Below, in pieces: positions 1-9,115 of a DNA stretch of 56,492 bases (the stretch's first letter is position 1; each line of letters starts with the position of its first letter). The stretch is from positions 1-56,492 of the IMG/VR virus record IMGVR_UViG_3300023284_000467. One strand, written 5' to 3'. A program made the position numbers and the translations under genes. Below the pieces are notes generated by a model, which worked only from the letters and a program-made list of their open reading frames with translations, did no database searches and had not been told where the DNA came from. This DNA comes from a virus.

Positions 1-144
1 ATCCATCTGAATCAATCCGTGATAACCACTGAATATCTCCCCATTGTCAGACATATCATCGATCAACCTCCGTAAATTCAACTCGCTCATCGGTCCCGGC
101 CAAGGTCCACCTATTGTCAAACGTGCCCAAAACCTATCGGACAT
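1..144 (-). CDS. hypothetical protein, partial at left edge
   Basis: An open frame starts at an ATG at 144, behind a strong AGGAGGAACA ribosome-binding site, and runs 48 codons without a stop off the left end of the window. The visible part begins MSDRFWARLTIGG and matches no family I recognise. Its start overlaps the last 11 bases of the HNH gene at 134-580, the same tight packing seen through the rest of the operon, so it is probably the next gene of the ubiquitin-like operon. Only the N-terminal 48 residues can be judged. Confidence 0.6.
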   Translation of the reverse strand, partial: MSDRFWARLTIGGPWPGPMSELNLRRLIDDMSDNGEIFSGYHGLIQMD

Positions 145-580
145 TGTTCCTCCTGGACCAGTTTCTTGACTGGACGTTGTGACATGCCCGACATTGACGA
201 AATCCAGCTTCGGTGATAATCAAATTATTGCCATCATACCGATGACCCTGTGGGCAATGGGTTTTACGATGGTTCTTCCCACTCCACCCATCCCCACGAT
301 GCAGATTCTCTGTCAAACTAACAATTTCCAGATGCTCCGGATTGACACACAGCCGTACCTTACACAGATGGTCGATCGTGAGCCCTTTCGGAATCTCTGC
401 GACATTCAATTCGTACGAGAACCGATGCGCTAGAATGGTCATATGCTGATGCGGAAAGAAATGGCCGTATCCAGTATTTTTATCAATCGTTCCGGTCCAC
501 ATCCAGCAGTTATCCATTTTTCGCACTCTGTTCCAGAACGACGTCACCACATATTCAAACGATGAGAAGGGTCTTGGCAT
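134..580 (-). CDS. HNH homing-type endonuclease (copy 1)
   Basis: This 148-residue protein has an N-terminal CWMWTG...GYGHF segment and a core HNH motif (GLTIDHLCKVRLCVNPEHLEIV). A C-terminal zinc-ribbon-like segment (CPQGH...CRACH) follows. The layout is typical of free-standing phage HNH endonucleases, which nick or cut DNA and spread by homing. It is clearly related to the HNH protein at 3373-3843: both share CW-WTG, IDHLCKVR-CV-P-H and a C-x-x-GH segment. Its start lies inside the 3' end of the E1-like gene (26-base overlap). It probably rides in the operon as a selfish gene and need not take part in the ubiquitin-like pathway. An upstream GGAGGGAG lies somewhat far from the ATG, so an internal start is possible. 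Confidence 0.85.
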   Translation of the reverse strand: MPRPFSSFEYVVTSFWNRVRKMDNCWMWTGTIDKNTGYGHFFPHQHMTILAHRFSYELNVAEIPKGLTIDHLCKVRLCVNPEHLEIVSLTENLHRGDGWSGKNHRKTHCPQGHRYDGNNLIITEAGFRQCRACHNVQSRNWSRRNNVR

Positions 581-1226
581 CGAAGACTATCTCCCTCCTT
601 ATTTCACCATCCTTGAGGAACTTAGCGACTGCCCTAGCAACGAACGCCCCAACGAAGAACGACGTATATATAACTGCCCTCGCAGTGCACGGGAGTTCAA
701 CCGCTTCCTCGTCCGAATACAGCGTGGTCTCGTAAAACGTCAGATCATCGGGATCGCATGGCCGGATGCTGTACAGACGTATGAACTCTCCACCCATACG
801 ACCATCAATCAGCAGTTGCACCTGCGGCTTATACCTCACACTCTCGAATATTTTCTTCCGGCCCTCCATGTTGTCGATGGCAGACACCACGATGCCTCTC
901 GGAACATCTCCGTTCCACTTCCAATTCATCGGATGCACCTTAGCCTCTGAAAACTGCTCTACCATGTTCTGAAATGCATCTACTTTCTGACGGCCAACCG
1001 AATCCATCGGGTAGATTTGATTTGGCAAATTATGTGTCTCTACCCTGTCATCATCGATAACAGTGATTTTCTGAATCCCCAGCTTGCCCAGCGCCAATCC
1101 AACCGGCGATCCAATGCCACCAGCACCCACAATCGTCACCGGACACATCTTTTCCATCGGATTAAAGATATCAGTCTGACGCGAATACAAATCCTCTCGC
1201 TTCCAATCATGCTTCTCCTCCATCAT
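555..1226 (-). CDS. ThiF/E1-like activating enzyme
   Basis: This 223-residue protein has the ThiF/MoeB/E1 Rossmann fold. The nucleotide-binding loop VGAGGIGSPVG sits at about residues 33-43, preceded by the family's YSRQ. An acidic turn IDDDRVETHNLPNQ at 57-70 and AIDNMEGRKK at 117-126 follow. C180 in ELPCT is the best candidate for the thioester-forming cysteine. Family members adenylate the C-terminal glycine of a ubiquitin-like protein and pass it on as a thioester. The gene begins ATGATG and overlaps the JAB stop by four bases (ATGA). It is shorter than eukaryotic E1s and lacks a separate Ufd domain, as is usual for bacterial E1-like proteins. Its partners are the Ubl at 3840-4142 and the E2-like protein at 2067-3380. 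The fold is certain; E1 rather than thiamine or molybdopterin use is inferred from the neighbours. Confidence 0.9.
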   Translation of the reverse strand: MMEEKHDWKREDLYSRQTDIFNPMEKMCPVTIVGAGGIGSPVGLALGKLGIQKITVIDDDRVETHNLPNQIYPMDSVGRQKVDAFQNMVEQFSEAKVHPMNWKWNGDVPRGIVVSAIDNMEGRKKIFESVRYKPQVQLLIDGRMGGEFIRLYSIRPCDPDDLTFYETTLYSDEEAVELPCTARAVIYTSFFVGAFVARAVAKFLKDGEIRREIVFDAKTLLIV

Positions 1227-2080
1227 TTTCCCCCCTTTGAAGCCATACCCAGATAACGTCGTAACCAGGACGGTTCCTTGCTAACTTCATCCTCGTCCTT
1301 GGACTCCAGTCGCTTCGTCTCAGTCGTCGCGGCCGTTTCATCCGTTTCATCGAAATACTTTTTCTGGATTCTCTCTCTCTCAACCATGTCATCCCACTCT
1401 GCAGTAGTGATGGTCTTTTTCGGCTTCAAATAATCAGGCAACTGAATCGGCTCCTCACCAGGAAACAGTGCGGCCTGTCCTTGGTTTGTTGCCTCATCGA
1501 TCCGATCACCAACATAATCCCTGTACAGATCACTACCTTTTGTCGGTGCAAATGTGGAGAAGACAGAGCGTCTCCCAAACCGCTCACTAACTTTTTCAGC
1601 AACCTCCTTTCGCAACTCATCTACGAAAGGGTCATCGGCATCCTCCACGACCTCCAGCGTGAGACTATCAATCGTCAAACGAAACGGCTTAAAAACATCC
1701 AACCGCATCCTGTAATTCCCTTCCTTGTTCACTACGATAGACACATACCAGGGCGCTGTCAGACCAAACTTGTCACACGTTCCATGGTCTGTCCCGCTCC
1801 AATACGCTTTCATGTTGGCGTGACTGTGCCACCATAATTTCAGCTCAGACGGATCTTTCTTTTCATCCATCATCTGCATGATCAACTTGGCTACCGAGCT
1901 CTCATCCAACTCGGTATGTGTCCCGCTTACGTCCTGCTCGAACAGCAAAATATCGTGGATTGTGAACTCTGACTTCCCATTCGTCCTAACTATCCCAAGT
2001 CCACCGATCTCACCGCTCACTAACTTTGGGTACGTGAACAGCTTCTTAAACGCGACTCTCGTGATCTTAATCGGTTCCAT
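1223..2080 (-). CDS. JAMM/JAB-domain metallopeptidase
   Basis: The N-terminal half of this 285-residue protein carries a complete JAMM zinc-protease motif. E24 lies in GEIGGLG, H85 and H87 in WWHSHAN, and S95 and D98 in the spaced SGTD, giving H-x-H-x7-S-x2-D. JAB peptidases cleave after the terminal glycine of ubiquitin-like proteins, either to mature the precursor or to remove it from targets. The C-terminal 130 residues are charged, unlike any domain I know, and end in KGGK. I chose the ATG at 2080 because AAGGGGG lies just upstream. The start overlaps the 3' end of the E2-like gene by 14 bases. The nearby Ubl ends in GGIR, so removal of the last two residues is a likely job. Confidence 0.92.
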   Translation of the reverse strand: MEPIKITRVAFKKLFTYPKLVSGEIGGLGIVRTNGKSEFTIHDILLFEQDVSGTHTELDESSVAKLIMQMMDEKKDPSELKLWWHSHANMKAYWSGTDHGTCDKFGLTAPWYVSIVVNKEGNYRMRLDVFKPFRLTIDSLTLEVVEDADDPFVDELRKEVAEKVSERFGRRSVFSTFAPTKGSDLYRDYVGDRIDEATNQGQAALFPGEEPIQLPDYLKPKKTITTAEWDDMVERERIQKKYFDETDETAATTETKRLESKDEDEVSKEPSWLRRYLGMASKGGK

Positions 2081-3380
2081 CAGCATCCCCCTTCTTAATT
2101 TTATCATCCTTCCATAGCGGTATATGCTCCGCGCCCCACATATCATCCGGATTGTACGTCTGTAGATACGCCAACACGGTCTGCAACACAGCCCCAAACT
2201 CATAGTTACTAATCATCTTGATCACGCCACTTTGGATATTCCCCCAACAGGGCGTGTTCATTTTAACGTGCGGATGATCGATCGTCTCATACCCTCTCTT
2301 CTTTGCATTAGTCATGTTCCTGATCGCCACTTTACTATCTAACCCGATCTGAATCTCGAACGATCCAACCTTCCATTTCTGATCGATCAGCAACTCCGTC
2401 GTCAACGCCTTGATCCCGGCTGGATCAACAGCCAGACCAACTATCTCTTGCATCTCACAGATCTTATCGAACTCGCGTCTCGCCTTCGTATCAAAATCAC
2501 CGTTACGACTCGCCAGTCCACCGATCTGCAACTCCAAACTATCAATTTCACGAATCGCTTCAGTCAAACTCTTTGTGAGGTTGTCTCTCTCTATGACCAA
2601 TCCTTTCAGATCATTCTCAGCTCGTTTCATATCGCCCTGCGACCGGCTTTTCACCAACTGTACATACTGCTCTCTATAACGTTGTAGCCTGTGCCTCTTC
2701 TGCGACTCGAACTGCTCCTCCCACTTCTGTTCATTCAATGCCAGCGGCAGCGCTCGGTCAAAAATCCTGAGCAACACTGAAAACGACCAGAGGTTCTGTC
2801 GCTGCGTTACGGGAACAAGCAAAGCAATCAGATTAGGCATAACCTCCGCAATCCCGATTCCTTTATCATCAAACACGATGGCACCAGCACCAGCGGGACT
2901 AATCACATTTGAATGCGCTCCCATCGGATAGCGGGCTATATCAGCCGTCTGCCCATCACCAACATCAAAACTCAACGCATCAATGTGGCCACCCTGGTTG
3001 CTTCCAACGAGATTCCCATACGGGATCACTGTCACTCTGCCTTTCGCAGCCTCCGATCGCTGCGGTGACATATGACGTTGGACGTAGAACCACAGGTTAC
3101 AACGCTCCCCAAACGACTCCAGGAATTCGATCAGTGAGCTATTTGAAGTCCGAGGACCAAAATCACGATCAACTTCTACTCTCTGTGCCAACGCCCCTTT
3201 TTCCCTCTCAGCTTCAGGCGCAGCCACAGCAGCATCCAACATCTTCAACACTTCCTCCACCAAATGCTGATCACTCATCGGATAGCTAATCGCCGTACCA
3301 GCCCTGATAAACATGATCCGCCTTCGGCTTAGCTCACTGTCGAACCTGGGATCTAACTCGATTTGTCGCCAATCAGCCAT
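2067..3380 (-). CDS. multidomain protein with C-terminal E2 (UBC)-like domain
   Basis: This 437-residue protein starts at the ATG at 3380, behind GAGGAAG. Residues 1-210 form a domain I do not recognise. Residues 220-310 are a charged, heptad-like coiled coil. Residues 325-425 resemble an E2 ubiquitin-conjugating fold: a strand pair KWKVGSFEIQIG, then HPHV at 369-372, the putative catalytic cysteine C378 in TPCWGNI, a helix, and YNPDDMWG at 409-416. These match in order the HPNI, active-site Cys and PNPDDPL landmarks of E2 enzymes. E2s take activated Ubl from E1 and transfer it to targets. The gene overlaps the HNH gene upstream and the JAB gene downstream. The role is inferred from landmarks and context; a structure search would settle it. 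Confidence 0.75.
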   Translation of the reverse strand: MADWRQIELDPRFDSELSRRRIMFIRAGTAISYPMSDQHLVEEVLKMLDAAVAAPEAEREKGALAQRVEVDRDFGPRTSNSSLIEFLESFGERCNLWFYVQRHMSPQRSEAAKGRVTVIPYGNLVGSNQGGHIDALSFDVGDGQTADIARYPMGAHSNVISPAGAGAIVFDDKGIGIAEVMPNLIALLVPVTQRQNLWSFSVLLRIFDRALPLALNEQKWEEQFESQKRHRLQRYREQYVQLVKSRSQGDMKRAENDLKGLVIERDNLTKSLTEAIREIDSLELQIGGLASRNGDFDTKARREFDKICEMQEIVGLAVDPAGIKALTTELLIDQKWKVGSFEIQIGLDSKVAIRNMTNAKKRGYETIDHPHVKMNTPCWGNIQSGVIKMISNYEFGAVLQTVLAYLQTYNPDDMWGAEHIPLWKDDKIKKGDADGTD

Positions 3381-3843
3381 TGATTTGCTTCTTCCTCTGT
3401 TTTCTCTCTCGGTCACGGCGGGCATAACAGACTTTGCAGCGTCGATGCATATGGTCGTCTTTATCTTTATGCAGATACAGGTTCTCACCAGACAACGGGT
3501 GACCCCATATGCACTGGGTCTTGGCAACGTTGATGGCTGCATTTGTTTCAGCCCGCATCAAATTTTCCCTCGGCGTGACAACTTCCATGTGATCGGGCTT
3601 GACGCATCTTCGGACTTTACACAGATGATCAATTTGCCGACCAGCCGGTATTTCACCCCTGAACAAACGATATGAGGAGGTATGGGCATGACAACTATGA
3701 CCTTCGTACCAAAAATCCCCGTATCCATTCGGTGCGATGAATCCGGTCCACAGCCAACAGCCGTTGCGAAATTCGATGAACCGGAAGAACCGTTCATAGA
3801 CATTTTCTACAACCATCCTTCCGGTTATCTGATCCCTCTTCAT
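3373..3843 (-). CDS. HNH homing-type endonuclease (copy 2)
   Basis: This 156-residue HNH protein is a relative of the one at 134-580. It has CWLWTGFI...GYGDFW, the core IDHLCKVRRCVKPDHMEVV at about residues 90-108, and a C-terminal cysteine-rich segment (CIWGH...CKVC) followed by a lysine/arginine-rich tail. It sits between the ubiquitin-like gene and the E2-like gene and shares an ATGA with the former. It interrupts an otherwise coherent pathway operon, as free-standing homing endonucleases often do. No intron boundaries are visible around it, since both neighbours look full length. Confidence 0.87.
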   Translation of the reverse strand: MKRDQITGRMVVENVYERFFRFIEFRNGCWLWTGFIAPNGYGDFWYEGHSCHAHTSSYRLFRGEIPAGRQIDHLCKVRRCVKPDHMEVVTPRENLMRAETNAAINVAKTQCIWGHPLSGENLYLHKDKDDHMHRRCKVCYARRDRERKQRKKQING

Positions 3844-4142
3844 CGAATTCCGCCGCGTACTTTTGGCAGGGCAACCAGCGTATCGCCATCCTGCACAGGG
3901 TCTTGCAGGTTAGCGGGCTGACCATTTTTCCGAACCTCCAAACCTTGCGACACGTTAGCTCTCGTTAGAACCTCCTGGACGGTCGCACCTTCCACAACCG
4001 CAACCTCTGTCGGAGTCGCCCCTAACTCAGCAACCCTGACAAACAGTTGACGCCCGACAGCTTCCGTTTCTTCAACGGGAGTAACGTCGATTGGCTCCTC
4101 CTCATTTACTGCCACTGGGTCTCTATGCTCATCCCTTTCCAT
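3840..4142 (-). CDS. ubiquitin-like (beta-grasp) protein ending in GGIR
   Basis: This 100-residue protein has an acidic N-terminal tail of about 30 residues followed by a beta-grasp domain of the ThiS/MoaD/ubiquitin class. The order is strand RQLFVRVAEL, strand TEVAVVEGATVQEVL leading into a helix, strand EVRKNG, and DGDTLVALPKV before the C-terminus. The protein ends RGGIR, with the diglycine at 97-98. Ubiquitin-like modifiers are activated at an exposed terminal GG, so two residues would have to be trimmed, and a JAB peptidase is encoded two genes downstream. The start has an ideal AAAGGAGG site. Without the neighbours this could pass for a sulfur carrier; with E1, E2-like and JAB in one operon, a protein modifier is more likely. 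Confidence 0.85.
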   Translation of the reverse strand: MERDEHRDPVAVNEEEPIDVTPVEETEAVGRQLFVRVAELGATPTEVAVVEGATVQEVLTRANVSQGLEVRKNGQPANLQDPVQDGDTLVALPKVRGGIR

Positions 4143-4153
4143 AAAACCTCCTT

Positions 4154-4384
4154 TCAGGCTTTTTCTTTCGAGATGACTCTCTCAACACTCCAACCATTCA
4201 GACACAACTTACCAATCTGGGCATAAAACTTCGTCAGGGCTGGCCCTAGATTCTTGTACTTCCCAATTCGCTCGGTCCCTGATCGAATTTCGAACGCCAC
4301 CAAATCTCCTCGGTCTTGTTCAGAGTTAAGACTAACATCAGTCTTCTTACCTCCGTTTCGCATTGCGACCTTAAACATTTCCAT
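4154..4384 (-). CDS. small hypothetical protein between clamp and Ubl
   Basis: This 76-residue basic protein matches no family I recognise. It has a predicted beta-rich N-terminal half (FKVAMRN, DVSLNS, LVAFEIRSG) and a helical segment GPALTKFYAQIGKLCLNG. It starts behind AAGGTGAAAG and overlaps the last 14 bases of the clamp gene, so it is probably translated by coupling. Its constant packing between clamp and Ubl suggests a role in the same operon, as an adaptor or substrate, but nothing in the sequence shows which. Confidence 0.75.
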   Translation of the reverse strand: MEMFKVAMRNGGKKTDVSLNSEQDRGDLVAFEIRSGTERIGKYKNLGPALTKFYAQIGKLCLNGWSVERVISKEKA

Positions 4385-5828
4385 CTTTCACCTTCTTCTG
4401 CGGCAACTGATATACCGCTGTTTTGTCATATGAGCTAAGTCTATTTGTCCTTAGCTTTCCTGTCCTCCTCCATCTTCCGTCTAGCAACTCGAGCTTGATC
4501 ATATCCAGGTCCAGCGCAACCCACCAAACTAAGAATCTCTCCGCTCCTTTTTCAATAACATCACCGGAAATCAGAGACTTTGCACTAACAGCATTTCCAG
4601 TCTCTCTCTGGACAGCAATGCTCTCACTTCCAATCAGTGCAAACTCTTTCATCTCCGATACCGCTCTATCATCGAACACCGTCATTGCTGCTGGCATTAG
4701 ATACTGCTTTCGATCAACTCCACCCTCATTGGATCGAAACAAGATCGGACCCAGATCATTAGCGAATCGCACCGTGACAGCATTCATCCCAGCGAAATAC
4801 TTTGACGCGCATAGCATGTAATAAATCGGAAGCCCGAACGACCCTCGACCTTCAATCGGATCAGCCACCCTCATCTTCTTCGTCTGTGGCTGAAAATTCT
4901 TCCCCTCCATCATCCCAGCCAATGCCCAAACTCCTTCTTCTTCCAATGTGAACCGGAGCCATCTAGCACCATCTGACAATGCCATATCTACCAACTTCTC
5001 CAACCGCTGCCCGTTGATCATGAACTCCAAGCCACCTAGCTGCATCAACCTCCAATCGGGAATTTCGACCACCGCTTCCTGACTTGTAAACACACCGTAT
5101 GCTCCTCCACATTCAATCTGTATGGTCCGATCATTTACGAGATTCACTTTCAAATCATCTCCGAACGCCGCAATCACTTTCATCAACCAAATAGCTCCAG
5201 CATGAATTCTGGCTCTAACTAATGCTCCATCTGCTCTTGGACCGACGAGCCCGAGCTTGTGAATCATCAACTGGTGACTATCACAGGCGCAAACTTCATC
5301 TCGCAACGTGTCCAGGTAAAAGAAGTTGTGCGGTCTATCCGACGCTCTCAGCATCATCGACGCCATCTCCGTAAGAGACACCATGAGTTCTCGCTTATCT
5401 CCAACCACAGTCCCCGCATCCACCAGCGATATCATCGCTGTCCCAACCTGACGCTCAATCAGCACCGTCAGTGCCAGATCATACTGTCTGCCAGACTGTC
5501 GTACCCAACCAGTTGCAGCACTGACACCACCACTGCTCTGCAAATGCATCGTACAATTCGCGTCAGTAAGGAGTCGAGCTACTTTGTCAGCGATCTCTGC
5601 ATTGACCGCGTACACATGTCTATCAGCCGGAGCAGTCGGTTCAGAATGCAACAAGAACCAGAACGCGCCTAAGTCTCGTTTCGACTGAACATCTACAGCA
5701 GCAGTGACCTGGTTTTGACGAAATACGATCGACCGTTCATTAGATCCCGCCGTTTCGCCCACGCGACTGAAGGCGCGACCAACCTTAAAAACATTTTTCA
5801 ATTCAGTTCCTGATACAGTGAATTCCAT
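4371..5828 (-). CDS. DnaN-like sliding clamp (DNA polymerase III beta-like)
   Basis: This 485-residue protein shows several DnaN landmarks. The N-terminus is MEFTVSGTELKNVFKVGRA. The mid-protein segment DEVCACDSHQLMIHKL resembles the ATDGHRLA segment of beta clamps. Near residue 375 there is AVTVRFANDLGPILFRS...YLMPA, resembling the last-domain strand and the VVMPMRL ending. Beta clamps encircle DNA and tether polymerases, ligases and repair factors. It is longer than the usual 360-380 residues, with extra sequence after the MP segment. It is the first gene after a strong promoter (5849-5885) and heads the ubiquitin-like operon. No polymerase is encoded in the window, so it may recruit host or distant phage enzymes. 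Overall similarity is low, so the call is probable, not certain. Confidence 0.65.
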   Translation of the reverse strand: MEFTVSGTELKNVFKVGRAFSRVGETAGSNERSIVFRQNQVTAAVDVQSKRDLGAFWFLLHSEPTAPADRHVYAVNAEIADKVARLLTDANCTMHLQSSGGVSAATGWVRQSGRQYDLALTVLIERQVGTAMISLVDAGTVVGDKRELMVSLTEMASMMLRASDRPHNFFYLDTLRDEVCACDSHQLMIHKLGLVGPRADGALVRARIHAGAIWLMKVIAAFGDDLKVNLVNDRTIQIECGGAYGVFTSQEAVVEIPDWRLMQLGGLEFMINGQRLEKLVDMALSDGARWLRFTLEEEGVWALAGMMEGKNFQPQTKKMRVADPIEGRGSFGLPIYYMLCASKYFAGMNAVTVRFANDLGPILFRSNEGGVDRKQYLMPAAMTVFDDRAVSEMKEFALIGSESIAVQRETGNAVSAKSLISGDVIEKGAERFLVWWVALDLDMIKLELLDGRWRRTGKLRTNRLSSYDKTAVYQLPQKKVKDGNV

Positions 5829-6712: not shown

Positions 6713-7055
6713 TTGACCTCCTACCTCTAGGTCTGCCTATACGCCTGCGTGTTCGCTTTAGATCACCATGCACTCTACGTTCATGCATCGATCTTCCTGC
6801 AGTGTTTCTAAACGGTCCCGCTCCACACCGCTTACGCTTGCAGTAGAACGCCTTATCACCTGGTCTAAGCGCACTACGGCGAGTCACCGGATCGAGCTCA
6901 GCCTTACCATCTTCCTTGGAACCACTCTTTGCTCGCGTCGATCTCTCAGCTTGCAGGACATGCTCTTGATCACCGACCTTGAACTCTATGGGCATCCCAC
7001 GACGCAAATTGAGCAGATCAATCTTGCTCAGCAGTAATAGACTTATTGGTCTCAT
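6702..7055 (-). CDS. C2H2-like zinc-finger protein
   Basis: This 117-residue basic protein has a C-x4-C-x13-H-x4-H element (CKRKRC...MHERRVH) at about residues 73-96, followed by a very arginine-rich tail (RTRRRIGRPRGRRS). A C2H2 finger with an AT-hook-like GRPRGR tail suggests DNA binding. The ATG at 7055 has AAGGAGAGGAAG in front and overlaps the 3' end of the SWIM/RarA-like gene by 38 bases. An internal ATG at 6995 has only a weak site, so I keep the longer form with some doubt. Confidence 0.7.
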   Translation of the reverse strand: MRPISLLLLSKIDLLNLRRGMPIEFKVGDQEHVLQAERSTRAKSGSKEDGKAELDPVTRRSALRPGDKAFYCKRKRCGAGPFRNTAGRSMHERRVHGDLKRTRRRIGRPRGRRSNGA

Positions 7056-7860
7056 CTTCCTCTCCTTTTCCGACTAAATCTGGATACTCTGCTCTCAACT
7101 TCTTCATGTACGAGCCTTCTTTGTCGAGATACACCTTGCGAAAATCATAGAACAAACGCCAGTCAGTCCTGCCGAGCTCTTTCCCTCGGGCGGTGTGAGC
7201 ATCGACAGCATACTCAGGCACGGGTGGTCTCCATCCATGCTTTACTCTCAACTGTGTCAACACCTTGAGATCATCAACCTCTGTACTCTTCTTAGCACGT
7301 GAGAGCACCATGACGGCATGCACCAGCGGATCAGGATCGACAAAGAATCGTGACATCCACTTGCAAAAATCCCACCCCTGCGCCAACGATATTGCCGTCC
7401 GAACTGCCTCTGGATCTGCGAACCCAACATCCTCTGACGCCTGAATCACTACCCGCTTCCAGGTGTACCCTGGTGCAATCGTCGATGCCTCCATAGCCCA
7501 GAACACCGCCATTTCCTCATTCCCTAGACGGACTTCCTTGTGCATCGCCGAAATGACTTCATCCAGTCTGTACCCATTCTTCGTCACCGCTCTCGGCTTC
7601 TTGGCTCTGTGCTGTGCCTCAGTGATCACCACTCCTTCTTTATGTCGCTCCTTGTAGCTGAGCGACATCATCACTGCCTTGATGTGTTTACAAAACGTCC
7701 CTCGCTGACCTGCATAGCAATCACAGGTCAACCCACCCTGCTCACCATAATCAATCACCGTGTAGTCCATATCCTTGCGCGACTGAGACGGGACGACATA
7801 CTTATTAGGATCGTCGGTCGTCTCAACCTGGATCGTCTCTATCGGCTTTGCTTGTGCCAT
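7018..7860 (-). CDS. SWIM zinc finger fused to RarA/MgsA C-terminal-like domain
   Basis: This 280-residue protein has two recognisable parts. Residues 46-59 form a SWIM zinc finger (CDC...FCKH, CxCx8CxH). From about residue 96 it resembles the C-terminal region of RarA/MgsA/WRNIP1: AMHKEVR...VFWAMEA, KRVVIQASEDVGFADPEAV, then WRPPVPEYAVDAH. In RarA that region oligomerises and binds partners at stalled forks; here the AAA+ ATPase core with Walker motifs is absent. The start has TAGGAGGAATT and follows the promoter at 7910-7948 after a leader of about 45 bases. A role at replication forks is inferred. The SWIM motif is certain and the RarA match is strong in the ASEDVG segment. Confidence 0.82.
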   Translation of the reverse strand: MAQAKPIETIQVETTDDPNKYVVPSQSRKDMDYTVIDYGEQGGLTCDCYAGQRGTFCKHIKAVMMSLSYKERHKEGVVITEAQHRAKKPRAVTKNGYRLDEVISAMHKEVRLGNEEMAVFWAMEASTIAPGYTWKRVVIQASEDVGFADPEAVRTAISLAQGWDFCKWMSRFFVDPDPLVHAVMVLSRAKKSTEVDDLKVLTQLRVKHGWRPPVPEYAVDAHTARGKELGRTDWRLFYDFRKVYLDKEGSYMKKLRAEYPDLVGKGEEDETNKSITAEQD

Positions 7861-7973: not shown

Positions 7974-8171
7974 TCACCATGGCGTTACAGTCATCGGATG
8001 CTTCTCAGGAACCTGCACTCGGAGTTCAGGTGGTCCAACATGAAAAAGTAAGAGCATGTATGAGTTTCTCGACCTTCGAGCTGATCTTAGCAGCCACATT
8101 CGGTCATCCCGTGTGATTATGGAGGCCGGAGATTTCTCATTCAACCCAATGAACTTTTCTCGATAGCTCAT
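7974..8171 (-). CDS. small hypothetical protein after DNA ligase
   Basis: This 65-residue frame begins MSYREKFIGLNEKSP at an ATG overlapping the ligase stop (TAATG), with AGAGG just upstream. It is basic, has no recognisable domain, and ends 26 bases before the promoter at 7910-7948. Its 3' half contains one of three dispersed palindrome-like repeats (8010-8029), so part of the frame may be a regulatory sequence that happens to be open. Translational coupling to the ligase is the main support. Confidence 0.5.
   Translation of the reverse strand: MSYREKFIGLNEKSPASIITRDDRMWLLRSARRSRNSYMLLLFHVGPPELRVQVPEKHPMTVTPW
8010..8029. repeat. dispersed palindrome (copy 1, one mismatch)
   Basis: AACCTGCACTC-G-GAGTTCA on the plus strand, the same 19-base unit as at 12791 and 13769 but with one base breaking the palindrome. 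It lies within the small frame at 7974-8171. Confidence 0.5.
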
Positions 8172-9115
8172 TACCTCTGATCCTCCAGAATGCAGTCTGT
8201 CTGCAGCTTGTCGTCTCTCCACTGTATGAAGCTCGCATGTCTCAATGCGCCTCCTGGCATCACGCCGTAGCACTTCACTTCCGCAACTTTTCCAACATGC
8301 TGCTCCAGATCAACTTTGTTGCCCCACTTCACTCCCTGGCCTACAGTCTTGACCTTCTCCTTTTTCGGATCGTAGTACCCATAGGTCAGTGCAGCCTCAC
8401 AGCCTTTGAACTCCTTGTTACCCGTCAAATAGCTCGGCTTGTCAGTGATCCCTGTCACTACGACGTCTACTGTCATCGTCACCTTCACCTTGAGCCAGTC
8501 ATGCGATCTGGTCGAGGTATAAGGAGCATCCGTCGCTTTGAGCATGATCCCTTCTCCGCCTTTATCCTCACACCAGAAATCCCACATCGCTTGCTTGTCT
8601 TTCCAGGCTGGAATCAACGTTACTCTCGGGTGGAAGTGGAGGCCAGCAAAGATTCGCTCTAACGCTGCCCGCCTCACCGCCCATGAATGACACCGCATAT
8701 TCCCGCCCTCTTCCATCAACAGATCAAAGACGACCACTAACTTTTCAGCCCCAGCACTCGAGCGACTATTCTTGACAGTCTTTCCACCCGTATTGGTTCC
8801 ATCTCCGGAAAATACTTCGCAGTCAAAGATCCCGCTCTCAAGCGGCCACTTCACATCAGCCAACCACTCGTGCCCTTTGTCATCAGAAATATCACGACCC
8901 GTCCTGCTGTAGCAGCCGACAGTCTTACCGCCCTTGACGTGCAACTGGAGACGACAGCCATCCAGCTTCGGCTCCGCGACAAAGCGGTCATCGGTCATTA
9001 CCTGATCGTCTTCTGGCAGGTGCGCTGCCATCGGCTTGATGAATTCCATCGGCTCCCTCCTTAACCAATTCTGATTCGCTTCAACAGCATCTGGATCTTC
9101 GGTGATCACCTTCAC
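8171..9115 (-). CDS. ATP-dependent DNA ligase
   Basis: This 314-residue protein has the nucleotidyltransferase motifs of ATP-dependent DNA ligases. Motif I is EPKLDGCR with K50 as the AMP-accepting lysine; motif III is FDCEVFS, IIIa VVFDLL, IV GEGIMLKA and V DWLKVK. An OB-fold-like C-terminus follows. It seals nicks during replication or repair. Two starts compete. The GTG at 9115 has AGGGAGAAGTAG in front and directly follows the upstream stop. The ATG at 9049 has an ideal GGAGGGAGCCG. I keep the GTG because the extra N-terminal peptide VITEDPDAVEANQNWL is closely matched at the C-terminus of the portal fusion protein (49798-49845). Confidence 0.93.
   Translation of the reverse strand: MKVITEDPDAVEANQNWLRREPMEFIKPMAAHLPEDDQVMTDDRFVAEPKLDGCRLQLHVKGGKTVGCYSRTGRDISDDKGHEWLADVKWPLESGIFDCEVFSGDGTNTGGKTVKNSRSSAGAEKLVVVFDLLMEEGGNMRCHSWAVRRAALERIFAGLHFHPRVTLIPAWKDKQAMWDFWCEDKGGEGIMLKATDAPYTSTRSHDWLKVKVTMTVDVVVTGITDKPSYLTGNKEFKGCEAALTYGYYDPKKEKVKTVGQGVKWGNKVDLEQHVGKVAEVKCYGVMPGGALRHASFIQWRDDKLQTDCILEDQR

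Follow-up and report, generated by a model that had tools for sequence, protein, structure and literature searches.

Results

A probable ubiquitin-like conjugation gene set on a tailed-phage contig

A linear viral contig of 56,492 bp (IMG/VR record IMGVR_UViG_3300023284_000467, analysed over its whole length and referred to here as the window) carries on its minus strand a cluster of genes for a ubiquitin-like protein (Ubl), an E2-like protein, a JAMM metallopeptidase, and an E1/ThiF-like enzyme, which at the sequence level very probably make up an Ubl-conjugation cascade. The favoured interpretation, in which we place modest confidence as a whole, is that the phage encodes a self-contained, reversible cascade acting on replication and recombination proteins; for the last element, a cascade directed at the DNA replication and recombination proteins of phage or host, we would put the chances at about even. 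Conjugation is supported by profiles built exclusively from the viral proteins, which selected E2 enzymes, Rpn11 and CSN5, UBA5, MccB, ThiF and E1, and SAMP2 from the whole PDB. The same contig encodes a tape measure protein, a major head protein, a head protease, and a gene transfer agent (GTA)-like tail protein, in agreement with a preliminary description of this DNA, according to which the phage itself owns the set.

Six genes follow one another in series (Ubl, HNH, E2-like, JAMM, E1, HNH), with each neighbouring pair overlapping by 4–26 nt. The preliminary description had presented the region as a complete, overlapping four-gene operon; all four genes and every motif it named were found on the minus strand at 4142–555, but that description had overlooked a pair of HNH endonuclease genes, the first separating Ubl from E2 and the second following E1.

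Relatives of the set were recovered only via alignments of E1 and JAMM, single-protein viral scans having returned no close relatives of the window E2 and JAMM, and tblastn none of E2 in phage records. In IMG/VR, at least 378 contigs carried E1 and at least 323 carried JAMM, and the top 80 of each were examined. All four profiles matched in 97 loci. Of the distinct loci that could be tested, 105 of 110 had JAMM next to E1, 68 of 90 had E2 immediately upstream of JAMM, and 69 of 71 had Ubl upstream of E2. What had been described as the property of one phage is instead a family with members in hundreds of viral contigs. Since the catalytic residues of JAMM, E2, and E1 were kept across relatives, the motif set in the window is not due to chance.

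The Ubl gene (3840..4142, minus strand) encodes a protein of 100 aa, in which an N-terminal extension is followed by a SAMP2/ThiS-like domain with the C terminus PKVRGG-IR (KVRGGIR); in the predicted product, two residues (IR) must be trimmed to expose GG. The match to Pfam ThiS (E = 6e-4) was just below the cut-off of that family, and the top PDB match of the viral Ubl profile was Pyrococcus furiosus SAMP2 (5lda_B, E = 1.3e-10). Membership of the beta-grasp family, assigned by sequence profile, and a GG close to the C terminus are the features of a conjugatable Ubl. A GG no more than three residues from the end was present in 73 of 104 distinct relative Ubls versus 41 of 3442 other ORFs, an enrichment that is biased because the Ubl seeds were partly picked by their GG tails. 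Two relatives (L088:4236-4649 and L086:7639-8049; L numbers denote related loci throughout) encode two tandem Ubl units, each with a KVKGG or AVKGG end, in an arrangement that resembles a polyubiquitin precursor and needs a processing peptidase.

The E2-like open reading frame spans 3542-2067, and its likely start, an ATG at 3380, yields a protein of 437 aa (2067..3380, minus strand) with a divergent N-terminal part, a long coiled coil (about residues 217–290), and a C-terminal domain resembling the ubiquitin-conjugating (UBC) fold (about 296–437). The latter contains HPHV at 369–372 and TPCWGNI with the candidate catalytic cysteine C378. Searched against the PDB at E ≤ 10, a profile of 37 viral domains matched 63 sequences, nearly all of them E2s (best UBE2D2, E = 0.026), and its alignment with UBE2D2 placed the viral HPH and Cys on the HPN and catalytic Cys of the E2. 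The catalytic motif of E2 enzymes, HPx followed by a Cys aligned to the active site, is thus present as HPH rather than HPN, and the Cys was kept in 94 of 94 aligned, non-gap relatives.

AlphaFold2 (AF2) modelled the UBC domain alone with a UBC-like fold (predicted local distance difference test score 82.1, predicted template modelling score 0.75), while in the full-length protein confidence was low outside the coiled coil and the UBC domain. The two top Foldseek matches of the domain model were human UbcH7 (probability 0.72–0.75, TM-score 0.48–0.49, weak E = 0.17–0.19), and a bacterial E2 (8tz0) appeared at rank 11. Because its E-value is weak (0.17), the Foldseek result carries weight chiefly in combination with the sequence profile; the two lines, individually weak, agree with each other, and the E2-like domain anticipated in the preliminary description finds tentative support in a predicted UBC-like fold with a human E2 as its top match. 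In three relatives (L024:1238-2437, L038:2897-4216, and L044:4123-5175), the E2-like proteins carry long Cys-rich tails of CxxC repeats (RING- or treble-clef-like), which had no Pfam match.

The JAMM/MPN+ metallopeptidase (1223..2086, or from a start at 2080, minus strand; about 285 aa) has the complete catalytic signature of deubiquitinases of this class (E, H-x-H, and S-x2-D in an MPN domain) as E24, H85-S-H87, and S95-x2-D98. The Glu was conserved in 133 of 133 relatives, and the two His, the Ser, and the Asp in 134 of 134. The window protein alone matched Pfam Prok-JAB below the cut-off (E = 5e-4); the viral profile retrieved an archaeal Rpn11-like protein (6fjv, E = 1.7e-10) as best PDB match, then Rpn11 and CSN5. 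One relative has a tandem pair of JAMM genes after E1 (L095:5938-7771).

The E1/ThiF-like Ubl-activating enzyme (555..1226, minus strand; 223 aa) matched Pfam ThiF at E = 4.4e-18, and the viral E1 profile gave UBA5 and MccB as best PDB matches (E about 2e-13), with ThiF next. It has the GxGGIG motif (VGAGGIG), the Arg, Asp, and Lys residues of adenylation, and a putative catalytic Cys (R16, D58/D60, N66, K81, D118, and C180 in LPCTARA). These key residues were conserved over 129 distinct relatives, and the equivalent of C180 was a Cys in 126 of 126 with a letter at that site.

Looser versions in crAss-like and other phages

In phage records, tblastn matched both E1 and JAMM to crAss-like phages and Dulem virus 41, and E1 also to Flavobacterium phages. 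Looser versions of the set were found in crAss001 (gp76-gp79), a cultured gut crAss-like phage, and in cr106_1, Flavobacterium phage Fpv3, and Dulem virus 41, where, as in the window, the order is Ubl-like, large protein, JAMM, ThiF, and where primase, UDG, exonuclease, and resolvase genes lie nearby. Their genes are annotated merely as thiamine biosynthesis, metalloprotease, or hypothetical. Unlike the window Ubl, the Ubl-like part of crAss001 has a KSG end and a C-terminal extension, and the large upstream protein has HSH followed by CxG in place of the HPH of the window. In a further locus the order is rearranged to E1-Ubl-E2-JAMM (L096:4097-6720).

The HNH gene between Ubl and E2 (3373..3843, minus strand; HNH_3, E = 4.5e-11; phrog_826, E = 1.6e-45) is probably a mobile insertion. 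The second HNH gene (134..580, minus strand; HNH_3, E = 1.4e-9; phrog_826, E = 5.4e-43) overlaps the end of E1. In cr106_1 (L002:1877-3080), an HNH gene separates Ubl from a small gene similar to the C-terminal extension of the crAss001 Ubl, gp79, much as an HNH gene adjoins Ubl in the window.

A pattern scan of genome contigs gave five matches, two of which were relatives. Virus specificity of the set is suggested rather than proven by this result because the pattern is insensitive and would match just 7 of 69 viral JAMMs that had been retrieved independently. A complete Ubl-E2-JAMM-E1 set was also present in a 6,277-bp contig (L165) of a Deltaproteobacteria metagenome-assembled genome, which may be a misbinned viral contig.

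Genes surrounding the set

The 142 ORFs downstream of E1 in the related loci included 11 DnaB, 11 primase-family, 10 Sak4, 7 Erf, and 7 exonuclease VIII proteins, as well as UDG and RusA. Among 131 control ORFs taken from elsewhere on the same contigs, no family had more than two members, and DnaB, primase, Sak4, Erf, and exonuclease VIII were absent from the families listed. The downstream enrichment of DnaB, Sak4, Erf, and exonuclease VIII corresponds to p = 0.004–0.04 per family, values that assume at most one control member per family, with families that can overlap. These surroundings suggest a link with DNA replication and recombination rather than with virion protection or counter-defence. 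No cofactor-synthesis or tRNA-thiolation family was seen among the 25 commonest families of the 142 downstream neighbours.

In the window itself, a protein with a SWIM zinc finger and an MgsA/RarA C-terminal domain (7018-7860) and an ATP-dependent DNA ligase (8171-9115) are encoded 3–5 kb upstream of the Ubl gene. A sliding-clamp-like identity considered for a 485-aa neighbour (4371-5828) was unsupported; phmmer against the PDB gave nothing useful for this protein. In two relatives, a ClpC-like AAA+ protein is encoded soon after E1 (L006:6956-9475, with Clp_N, AAA_2, and ClpB_D2-small domains, and L089:7818-10349); ClpP was sought in seven contigs, including that of the window, and none was found.

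Discussion

In the sequence of events that we infer, JAMM would trim the Ubl precursor between GG and IR and, in relatives, cut between tandem Ubl units. E1 would then adenylate the exposed GG and hold the Ubl as a thioester on C180, from which E2 would accept it on C378 and pass it to amino groups of target proteins, with JAMM later stripping it off again. The coiled coil of the E2-like protein, or the Cys-rich tail in some relatives, probably provides binding to targets or partners, and early infection would be the most likely time of action.

Several observations weigh against this reading. The E2-like protein had no Pfam match, and its resemblance to E2s is remote both in the PDB profile search (E = 0.026) and in Foldseek (E = 0.17). 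In 22 of 90 testable loci, many of them of the crAss-like HSH type, the viral E2 profile found no E2 adjacent to JAMM, and the identification of the upstream protein of that type as a putative E2 rests only on position and the CxG motif. The near neighbours of the set in the window itself mostly have no known function. Moreover, the neighbourhood of the relatives bears on the targets indirectly: the loci lack independence and early genes are clustered in any case, so that an early DNA-metabolism setting is supported and the targets are not proven.

The remoteness of the E2 match and the loci with no adjacent E2 would also suit a non-catalytic, RWD-like scaffold accompanying an E1 and JAMM that perform E2-independent, SAMP-like conjugation; archaeal SAMPylation is E1-dependent and, to our knowledge, has no known E2. 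We consider this improbable, given that the Cys is found in all 94 aligned rows and is aligned by the profile with the catalytic Cys of E2s, and that most of the remaining loci have a large upstream protein, many with a CxG motif of their own. Still less probable is that a thiocarboxylated Ubl serves tRNA or cofactor thiolation in the manner of ThiS, MoaD, TtuB, and Urm1. The Ubl does belong to the ThiS/SAMP2/TtuB family, and SAMP2-like proteins are capable of both protein conjugation and sulfur transfer; yet those pathways include no E2-like protein with an invariant Cys, it is not obvious what tandem Ubl precursors would do in sulfur transfer, and the partner genes were not seen among the 25 commonest neighbour families. 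The preliminary description had named a match to a ThiS/MoaD carrier with cofactor-synthesis partners nearby as contrary to its proposal; the best PDB match was instead SAMP2, and a sulfur-carrier role was rejected as the principal explanation.

The main rival, possible although we regard it as unlikely, is a module for conflict (counter-defence or superinfection exclusion), in which the Ubl is put on proteins of competing phages or host defences, or JAMM removes Bil-type tags of the host from phage proteins. In bacteria, Ubl-E2-JAB-E1 (Bil) operons act against phages and modify phage proteins, and the sporadic, diverse distribution of the viral set would fit such a function. The many JAMM deSAMPylases of Borg elements have been interpreted as countering host tagging (PMC12660748), and the same paper briefly mentions Bil operons as anti-phage systems. 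A pure counter-measure would nevertheless need JAMM alone, yet the set retains E1, E2, and Ubl as well, their catalytic residues intact, and the genes most often seen downstream belong to replication and recombination. PADLOC, run on the window proteins, returned only E1-E2 matches of a generic kind for E1 and no convincing match for Ubl, E2, or JAMM.

The phage set is not classed as Bil, PRTRC, or SAMPylation, and resembles each in part. Like Bil (BilABCD, with an ISG15-like Ubl) and the bacterial Ubl-E2-JAB-E1 operons of types 6d/6e (Iyer 2006, PMC1779556), it unites the four activities of Ubl, E2, deubiquitinase, and E1 in one operon; the likeness to Bil-type systems drawn in the preliminary description holds to this extent, but the generic PADLOC matches do not demonstrate a Bil system. 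In contrast to these operons, the set is phage-borne, its Ubl is closest to SAMP2, its relatives lie beside replication and recombination genes, and the window E2 and Ubl have no match to curated Pfam E2 and Ubl families. Some bacterial operons in the same survey contain polyUbl genes (PMC1779556, row 6e), and in phages it describes a tail-assembly Ubl with JAB.

With SAMPylation (SAMP2-UbaA-JAMM1), the set shares a SAMP-like Ubl, a ThiF-type E1, and a JAMM deconjugase, whereas that system has no known dedicated E2 and the phage operon includes an E2-like gene. The PRTRC plasmid cassette (ParB-related, ThiF-related) likewise combines ThiF and JAB in one mobile operon. Membership was rejected: the window E1 scored 39 bits against PRTRC_ThiF (cut-off 144.75), the PRTRC E2 and Ubl families (Prok-E2_D, Prok_Ub) had no Pfam match at E ≤ 1 and no NCBIfam match at E ≤ 0.1, and no other PRTRC family was matched. 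In the PDB, the viral E2, JAMM, and E1 were matched best by eukaryotic UBE2D/UBE2L3, Rpn11/CSN5, and UBA5, respectively, but compared with the eukaryotic system the similarity is remote, the motif is HPH rather than HPN, E1 has a single domain, and no separate E3 was seen.

Phrase searches of searchable papers, with preprints and most subscription journals outside their reach, found no description of a phage set of this kind, and neither a crAss-like phage paper nor a jumbo-phage overview mentions one; its novelty is accordingly provisional. Bacterial Ubl conjugation is known as a function of host immunity or of mobile elements. More speculatively, and in our view doubtfully, tailed phages may have their own lineage of Ubl signalling that controls viral DNA replication and recombination or delivers tagged substrates to an unfoldase. 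Such a viral equivalent of the ubiquitin system would comprise tandem Ubls, an E2 with a coiled coil or a RING-like tail, an Rpn11-like deconjugase, and a ClpC-like unfoldase (L006, L089). The E2-, Rpn11-, and SAMP2-like sequences, together with the tandem Ubls, bear on the origin of ubiquitin signalling. If hundreds of phages own a complete E1-E2-Ubl-deubiquitinase set, then Ubl modification would serve the phage cycle itself, an idea that is testable now, as crAss001 has been grown on a Bacteroides intestinalis isolate.

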